Below, piece after piece: positions 37,407 to 38,346 of a stretch of 64,000 nucleotides of DNA (position 1 is its first letter; every line of letters starts with the position of its first letter). A program made the translations under genes and the position numbers. The DNA comes from Geobacter sp. AOG1 (GTDB taxonomy: Bacteria; Desulfobacterota; Desulfuromonadia; Geobacterales; Geobacteraceae): the NCBI RefSeq assembly GCF_019972315.1, contig NZ_BLIZ01000001.1, positions 248,001 through 312,000 on the forward strand, in the 5' to 3' direction. The notes under the pieces were generated by a model. The model searched no databases. It was not told the origin of the DNA and was given only the letters and a program-made list of their open reading frames with translations.

Positions 37407-38063
37407 ATGAAAACCGCCCGTATACCCATCGCCGGCAAGGAATTCCCCATCGGCAAGATCCTCTGCATCGGCCGCAACTACGTTGACCACATAAAAGAAC
37501 TGGGAAACGAGACGCCTGCCGCCCCCGTCATTTTCATGAAGCCTGCCACCTCCATCATCGGGGATGGCGATGAAATCGTCATACCCCCCTATTCGAAGAA
37601 CTGCCACCACGAGGCGGAACTGGCGCTCCTCATCGGCACCGGCGGCAAGAACATCCCCGTCGACGAGACCCTCTCTCATCTGGCCGGCTACGGTGTGGCC
37701 ATCGACCTGACCCTTCGGGACGTACAGGACGACCTCAAGAAAAGGAGCCTCCCCTGGGAGATCGCCAAGGGGTTCGACACCGCCTGCCCCCTGTCGGACT
37801 TCGTCCCCGCCGGCACCATCAGTGACCCCCAGCAGCTCCAGATCCGTCTCTCGGTCAACGGCACGCTGCGCCAGGACGGCAGCACCGCCCTGATGATCCA
37901 CACCGTTACGCAGATCATCAGCCACATCTCCTCCATCTTCACCCTGGAGCCGGGGGACATCATCCTTACCGGCACACCTGCGGGGGTCGGCCCACTTGTC
38001 CCGGGAGACAGGGTCTGCGCCGAAATCAGCGGGGTCGGCTCACTCACGGTAACGGTTAGGTAA
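37407..38063 (+). CDS. Fumarylacetoacetate hydrolase-family protein (acylpyruvase/isomerase type)
   Basis: 218 residues, the short FAH form. The typical metal-binding set is visible: the N-terminal IGRNYVDH, HHEAELALLIG (Glu ligands), then GYGVAIDLTLRDVQ, KGFDTACPL and LTGTPAGVGPL. Members hydrolyse acylpyruvates or decarboxylate oxaloacetate; which of these applies cannot be told from sequence. It has an AAGGAGAA site and lies 51 bases after the radical SAM gene. Confidence 0.9.
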   Translation: MKTARIPIAGKEFPIGKILCIGRNYVDHIKELGNETPAAPVIFMKPATSIIGDGDEIVIPPYSKNCHHEAELALLIGTGGKNIPVDETLSHLAGYGVAIDLTLRDVQDDLKKRSLPWEIAKGFDTACPLSDFVPAGTISDPQQLQIRLSVNGTLRQDGSTALMIHTVTQIISHISSIFTLEPGDIILTGTPAGVGPLVPGDRVCAEISGVGSLTVTVR

Positions 38064-38114
38064 CCCGGAATCGCTGCAGTTACCGACTTTTAAATAATTT
38101 CAATATTTAAATTA

Positions 38115-38144
38115 TTGACATCCCACATCGAGCCGGATTACAGT
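38115..38144 (+). promoter_or_regulatory. Sigma70 promoter of the candidate selenoprotein gene
   Basis: TTGACA (38115-38120), 18-base spacer, TACAGT (38139-38144), in an A+T-rich gap 29 bases before the start codon. It gives the small gene its own transcription unit. Confidence 0.55.
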
Positions 38145-38172
38145 TTTACTACACATCTTTAGGGGGTAAGCC

Positions 38173-38319
38173 ATGGAAACGGAAAAAATCTGCCCCGAAT
38201 GCAAGGGGGCCATGTTCCTGCTCCCCGGCTGAGGGGGCCTCTTCTGGCGGTGCCAGAAGTGCGGCAAAAAGATACCTTTTGCCAGCGGAGACATGCAGGA
38301 GTGCGATTGCAGCAAATGA
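38173..38319 (+). CDS. Candidate small zinc-ribbon selenoprotein (in-frame UGA at codon 20)
   Basis: 48 residues if the TGA at 38230-38232 is read as selenocysteine. The ATG follows AGGGGGT (38161-38167) at normal spacing. Two CxxC pairs, C7/C10 before and C27/C30 after the UGA, make one zinc-ribbon site (CX2CX16CX2C) that needs both halves. The segment around the UGA reads PG-U-GGLFWRC. A SECIS-like hairpin starts 9 bases after the UGA. The final TGA at 38317 is followed at once by a perfect terminator, so the gene ends where the read-through frame ends. Alternatives are a nonsense-mutated pseudogene or a base error. I know of no described selenoprotein of this type. Confidence 0.6.
38241..38259 (+). 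promoter_or_regulatory. Putative bacterial SECIS element
   Basis: CTTCTGGC (38241-38248), GGT loop, GCCAGAAG (38252-38259): a perfect 8-bp stem. The GGT begins 17 bases after the TGA; in E. coli fdhF the SelB-binding loop also carries GGU at nearly the same distance. Confidence 0.55.
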
Positions 38320-38346
38320 AAAAGGGGGCGGAAACGCCCCCTTTTT
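38319..38346. terminator. Bidirectional rho-independent terminator
   Basis: AAAAAGGGGGCG, GAAA tetraloop, CGCCCCCTTTTT form a perfect 12-bp stem (38319-38330, 38335-38346). It closes the small gene on the plus strand and can also serve the convergent lipoprotein gene. Confidence 0.9.

Follow-up and report, generated by a model that had tools for sequence, protein, structure and literature searches.

The window, by which we mean the whole 64,000-nucleotide stretch of Geobacter sp. AOG1 DNA that was analysed, carries at 38173-38319 of the plus strand the frame METEKICPECKGAMFLLPGUGGLFWRCQKCGKKIPFASGDMQECDCSK, followed by TGA, when an in-frame UGA is read through. Its sequence and its homologues indicate a selenoprotein gene of 48 residues in which the UGA of codon 20 (38230-38232, plus strand) would stand for selenocysteine (U20), a reading that draws on the TGA present in the ORFs of relatives. 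The cysteines are spaced CX2C-X16-CX2C (C7, C10, C27 and C30), with C44 and C46 as extra cysteines in the tail. The first CXXC (C7, C10; 38191-38202, plus strand) and the second (C27, C30; 38251-38262, plus strand) are probable metal knuckles, both being cysteine in 50 of 50 distinct rows compared, with both cysteine codons used at the first. The CxC of the tail (C44, C46; 38302-38310, plus strand), where relatives also have cysteines, is proposed to resolve the selenocysteine.

Further features lie on the same strand. A Shine-Dalgarno-like AGGGGG (38161-38166) lies 5' of the ATG, and the starts of relatives, among the start regions of the loci compared, mostly show a GGAGG-like Shine-Dalgarno. 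Farther upstream, TTGACA-18-TACAGT (38115-38144) resembles a promoter by consensus match only, the scan having returned 1 match against a mean of 0.4 in shuffled sequence. Downstream, a GGGGGCG/CGCCCCC stem with a GAAA loop and a T-run (38324-38346) has the appearance of an intrinsic terminator; it was read from the sequence, where it is plain, and was absent from the output of the motif scan. An earlier note on this DNA had described a unit framed by promoter and terminator, and its promoter is thus matched by the scan, its terminator by the sequence and not by the scan. The frame of that note, its TGA at 38230, its cysteine spacing, hairpin and ribosome site all agree base for base with the sequence. 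At 109 nt upstream of the selenoprotein gene and on the same strand lies a gene for a FAH-domain enzyme (37407-38063; PF01557, Pfam 217.1 bits). An antisense ORF (38112-38315) would place the gene on the minus strand; it is disfavoured because the variation among relatives sits at the third positions of the plus strand codons.

Behind the UGA, at 38241-38259 of the plus strand, the sequence can form a SECIS-like hairpin with a perfect 8-bp stem, CTTCTGGC/GCCAGAAG, and a GGU loop. The stem begins at the 9th base after the TGA, leaving a spacer of 8 nt, and 16 nt separate the TGA from the loop. The bSECIS model for bacteria gives an apical loop of 3-9 nt and an upper stem of 4-16 bp (PMC13188914, Fig. 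2 legend), together with a G among the first two loop positions and a UGA-to-loop distance of 16-37 nt (PMC13188914). The loop of 3 nt and the stem of 8 bp fall within these ranges, GGU supplies the G, and the distance of 16 nt is the lower limit of the model. As a single sequence the hairpin folds with unremarkable stability (z of -1.13, 24 of 200 shuffles folding at least as well), so that the case rests on comparison, namely on the retention of both TGA and hairpin in 49 of 49 ORFs. One exact copy of the hairpin occurs in its own genome; with two mismatches there are three copies, compared with two in the control, and there is no sign of the hairpin as a shared element elsewhere in the genome.

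The comparison was made on 49 distinct ORFs, a count that leaves out a relative from Methylomirabilota (L090) and two frameshifted entries (L030 and L091). The 19-base hairpin, CTTCTGGCGGTGCCAGAAG, was unchanged in all of them, without a single synonymous change. Mean pairwise synonymous differences were 0.61 over codons 5-19 and 0.55 over the two Gly codons that follow the TGA, then 0.0 over the seven hairpin codons and 0.73 over the nine codons after these. With 0.0 inside and 0.55-0.73 around, synonymous freedom therefore ends at the edges of the hairpin. The stem being invariant, the 49 ORFs have no covariation to show: the hairpin is indeed kept in relatives, as the earlier note had proposed to check, though by identity and not by the compensating changes it had asked about. 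L090 has an identical stem with a GUU loop.

The internal codon 20 was TGA in each of the 49 ORFs, and the terminal stops of the same ORFs were TAA in 22, TGA in 15 and TAG in 12. A profile search of the order (141 genomes) gave 57 matches, each with one TGA (57/57), and in a collection of 84,980 genomes the Sec site was TGA at 44 of 44 loci, the frameshifted L091 included. These sequences are related and the homologue sets overlap in species, so the counts do not amount to independent events. The fate of codon 20 in homologues, which the earlier note had singled out as a check, is thus retention of UGA. UGA and stem also stay where the flanking residues change, to GGH in L070, PAUGTLFW in L087 and AAAUGKFFW in L200. 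The last of these loci (G508:C1:1117400-1117900) is divergent, reading AAAUGKFFWRCQKCG, and has lost its tail cysteines while keeping UGA and hairpin; to judge from this one sequence, the RNA signal appears to outlive the residues around it. Geotalea toluenoxydans (and G028) carries a one-base deletion just past the UGA with the hairpin intact (L030, 1540-1600; L091, 6040-6100); either the gene was lost recently or the assembly is in error.

The genome contains what selenocysteine insertion requires of it. Scores of 613.8 bits for selA (cut-off 267.9), 341.2 for selB (cut-off 242.25), 369.8 for selD (cut-off 125), which itself carries an in-frame TGA, and 74.7 for tRNA-Sec (cut-off 47) were obtained, answering the call of the earlier note for selA, selB and selC. 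Of 58 related genomes, 54 have a selB match above the cut-off and 53 a tRNA-Sec match above its own. The selenoprotein gene is missing from 28 of the 58, absences that do not come from loss of the machinery since selB and tRNA-Sec are so widely retained.

Since UGA and hairpin are invariant, the machinery is present and three of the bSECIS rules agree with the hairpin, we consider it very probable (about 0.93-0.95) that 38173-38319 is a working selenoprotein gene with selenocysteine at the UGA of codon 20. SelB with Sec-tRNA would read this codon under the guidance of the hairpin.

A pseudogene or a sequencing error, in which a point mutation made TGA out of a sense codon, would look alike if one genome had a lone in-frame TGA, and Geotalea toluenoxydans does have a damaged copy, yet we reject this possibility, which the earlier note had kept, as negligible, given a TGA in all 49 ORFs and all 57 matches of the order across independent assemblies. 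That the UGA is a true stop is very unlikely. The product would be a peptide of 19 residues and the hairpin would serve the regulation or the stability of the mRNA, and codons 23-29 do coincide with the hairpin, where RNA selection alone could fix them. Beyond the hairpin, however, all 50 distinct rows have Cys at position 30 (TGC in 40, TGT in 10) and Gly at position 31, the latter through four codons; their retention through synonymous codons favours translation past the UGA. The K/R13 positions further on are kept in 49 of 50 rows, and at least two cysteines follow C30 in 47 of the 49 distinct ORFs. Moreover, the second CXXC, taken with the first, gives the full layout of a superfamily described below, and a true stop could equally well be TAA or TAG, which are both found among the terminal stops.

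Equally slight is the chance that the UGA is read as Trp or another of the standard amino acids. A conserved UGA in a conserved frame does not alone tell which residue is inserted, but the genome has SelB and tRNA-Sec, the UGA is followed by a suitably spaced SECIS-like hairpin, relatives show Cys and not Trp at the Sec site, and UGA serves as the normal terminal stop in 15 of the 49 ORFs of the family. Genome-wide recoding of UGA is disfavoured because UGA is also the terminal stop of this gene as well as of those 15 ORFs.

We next consider how far the gene extends beyond this genome. The 48-residue query matched 32 of the 58 related genomes, and the match was the true gene in 30, of which 29 have an intact locus and one is L030 with its one-base deletion behind the TGA. 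All four compared genomes of the genus of the window have the selenoprotein gene. The 44 loci of the 84,980-genome collection belong, by title, nearly all to Geobacter, Geomonas, Geotalea, Trichlorobacter, Oryzomonas, Citrifermentans, Pelobacter or relatives. A related UGA frame, FGDUGGSFWRCQKCG, was found at 4342-4434 of L090, in a Methylomirabilota assembly; this copy could reflect transfer or contamination. Weak matches L195-L199 lack the core and are not family members, L198 resembling an ordinary small zinc ribbon. Another scan matched 13 genomes, with six family members among the matches; L041 and L043 are RxU forms, whereas L042 (TAA), L044-L045 and L047 (no stop) and L046 (TGA) lack the layout CX2C-X9-U/C-X6-CX2C. 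A phage origin was also considered: in the viral contig collection 60 stretches matched a pattern and none was confirmed as a relative. Within the subtype, searches limited to core-like sequences found no Cys form at codon 20.

The window gene has the layout of NCBIfam NF041197, the dual CXXC motif small (seleno)protein, CX2C-X9-U/C-X6-CX2C, and this model is the only sizeable NCBIfam match of the window protein. Two predicted selenoprotein forms stand under it, OS_HP3 with the motif RxU and DW with the motif GxU (PMC13188914, Table 1); the correspondence that we use, RxU with OS_HP3 and GxU with DW, is one of motif and not of alignment with the deposited sequences. Accession SMF39960.1 appears as OS_HP3 in a 2022 review (PMC9312934) and as DW in a 2026 review (PMC13188914), and the naming of the two forms is therefore unsettled. 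NF041197 exceeded its cut-off in 63 of 297 genomes of the phylum. Wherever such members were free of stops, the Sec site was Cys (17/17, all those fetched: L092-L105 and L109-L111).

The gene might thus simply be a member of NF041197 and hence already known. All 26 scanned members of the subtype match the model, weakly (E at most 0.01, best 5.3e-6), and spacing and Sec position are the same. Against this, the window protein scores 24.2 bits where the cut-off is 40, none of the 58 relatives has a match over the cut-off, the model is of the equivalog type and so claims one function, and the subtype forms a supported group of its own in a tree, apart from the distant L090. We regard simple membership as rather unlikely.

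Three alignments of the forms were made. The first took in 26 loci of the subtype out of 29 intact ones (L013, L015 and L029 were dropped as near-copies or for an odd tail, and L004 was trimmed to the METEK start), the second 11 rows, and the third 11 of the 20 GxU-type loci fetched, some of them without their first residues. Profile-profile comparison with hhalign gave probabilities of 96.7 for the subtype against RxU/RxC, 9.5 for the subtype against GxU and 97.5 for RxU/RxC against GxU. In a tree of 76 rows and 39 columns, the subtype and L090 share a branch (99/96) that adjoins the RxU sequences L041 and L043 (99/92), with the caveat that the columns are few, long branches meet and the placement of L090 is unsure.

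The RxU/RxC form (OS_HP3) resembles the subtype in its CX2C-X9-U(or C)-X6-CX2C layout, its selenocysteine with Cys counterparts, its occurrence in the same phylum and its size of about 55-65 residues. It differs in its core, R[TS]U R instead of the PGUGG of the Geobacterales subtype, and in a helical, acidic tail ending in DR[LIF] or IIYD, whereas the tail of the subtype is a short CxC. The GxU form (DW of deep-Sep) shares the spacing and the Sec site, differs by its core CGGxAxIxGxU and scores under the NF041197 cut-off. Tail cysteines occur in 9 of 13 RxU rows, 11 of 15 RxC rows and 16 of 17 GxU rows, L090 included in the last. Behind the UGA of the RxU and GxU forms, SECIS-like folds are irregular, with z from -4.3 to +1.6. 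Among the other families of the phylum the GxU form (L126-L145) nearly always has UGA, with one Cys copy, L134. The frame that precedes it at L126, L127 and L130 has what we take to be topoisomerase-like zinc fingers.

Two further comparisons were made. NF049953 (ribbon_DG_selen, hypothetical protein DG) is likewise a predicted selenoprotein named after a zinc ribbon, and its motif GUxG is also contained in PGUGG, but its model has 172 positions, and its three matches in this genome are below cut-off and lie elsewhere than the window gene, which is not among them. Ordinary zinc ribbons (RPC10/RPB9, TopA, ZifS, LysW) have the two CXXC knuckles and give weak fold matches; they differ in having no selenocysteine, and none matches at E of 0.001 or less.

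The earlier note knew of no described selenoprotein of this type. That does not hold for the layout, as NF041197 with OS_HP3 and DW is an already predicted family; it does hold for the branch, which is distinct and uncatalogued. The open-licence papers searched yielded no description of a PGUGG subtype. The deep-Sep paper counts 13 known selenoprotein genes in G. sulfurreducens PL and no new one (PMC12013277), and an older table covering three Geobacter species has no such protein among its entries (PMC1794560). We thus read the gene as an uncatalogued Geobacterales subtype within a superfamily of dual-CXXC small selenoproteins, marked by the core PGUGGLFWRCQKCG and a tail rich in cysteine. 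The classical pairing of Sec and Cys homologues would then rest on the wider superfamily and not on the Geobacterales subtype.

Two AlphaFold2 models, whose confidence is modest (mean pLDDT 72.9 and 74.9, pTM 0.47 and 0.50, tail under 50), both place strands at 13-19 and 22-27 with U20 at the turn. The best Foldseek matches were zinc ribbons, at E of 0.38 at best and none reaching 0.001; a sequence search of solved structures returned weak matches of zinc-ribbon type (best E 0.0091), and the Pfam zinc-ribbon matches of the window protein were below cut-offs. On these models C7, C10, C27 and C30 would form the two metal knuckles of a small zinc-ribbon-like protein, in which a structural metal is likely, and Sec20 would sit at the turn of a beta-hairpin between them.

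In the neighbourhood of the gene, a FAH gene stands upstream on the same strand at 38 of 42 Geobacterales-type loci (L048-L089), within 113 nt in 37 and at 992 nt in L054; among the four loci without it, L052 offers just 83 nt of upstream sequence. When ORFs from 43 loci were clustered, the next neighbours, named by Pfam or provisionally, were a pyruvate phosphate dikinase, at 11 loci, and a ThiG-like gene, at 10. The FAH gene was found in 44 of the 58 relatives, 28 of which have the selenoprotein gene; 2 of the 14 FAH-less relatives have it as well, both of them incomplete genomes. The co-occurrence has a Fisher p of 0.0018, kinship uncorrected. Both genes are present and apart in G043, G050 and G052. 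In 12 of the 16 genomes with a FAH gene and no selenoprotein gene, the sequence behind the FAH gene was searched for remnants, with no hairpin core and three chance-like matches as a result. FAH-domain proteins include the oxaloacetate tautomerase/decarboxylase FAHD1 (PMC12176266). A functional tie between the selenoprotein and the FAH-domain enzyme is a serious possibility, somewhat short of probable.

As to function, the proposal we prefer is that the product is a thiol/selenol redox protein. Reactive and exposed at the turn, Sec20 would attack a substrate or partner, the tail cysteines C44 and C46 would resolve it as a selenenylsulfide, and the protein would serve the metabolism around the upstream FAH-domain enzyme. 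We hold a redox role with tail resolution only tentatively, and the part of the tail is uncertain because its cysteines are absent from 1 of the 49 ORFs, from L200 and from several RxU/RxC members.

A soft-metal role is nearly as likely, though unlikely when taken on its own: the protein would still be a selenoprotein, with Sec20 as a ligand of a soft metal or metalloid in a chaperone or sensor instead of a redox group. The zinc-ribbon-like scaffold and the Cys-rich tail would suit it, and certain small selenoproteins may use selenocysteine to bind a metal, SaoB, SaoC and UXX-star being the examples given in PMC13188914. On the other hand, no metal-transport or resistance gene is among the common neighbours, and the modelled selenocysteine would be at the turn, the end away from the expected knuckle metal, a position deduced from the models and not from measured coordinates. 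Returning to the redox proposal, its most specific form, in which selenocysteine is obligatory in the subtype and the hairpin-tip Sec and tail CxC make a minimal selenenylsulfide switch partnering or regulating the FAH enzyme, is speculative and improbable.

The gene adds a selenoprotein without a model of its own to metal-reducing bacteria that are well studied, in 57 of the 141 genomes of the order. The deep-Sep procedure, as described in PMC12013277, discards a candidate unless its top hits include a known Sec homologue or two or more Cys homologues; the subtype having no detected Cys form, such a protein would escape homology methods that depend on Cys relatives. The invariant 19-base hairpin offers a clean natural SECIS for study. 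The recurrent FAH-domain neighbour is a first testable genetic context for an uncharacterised dual-CXXC family, and the pairing suggests interest in the substrate and redox sensitivity of the FAH enzyme. If true, a minimal selenenylsulfide switch acting with a FAH enzyme of the oxaloacetate tautomerase/decarboxylase-like kind would tie selenium to the central metabolism of Geobacter.
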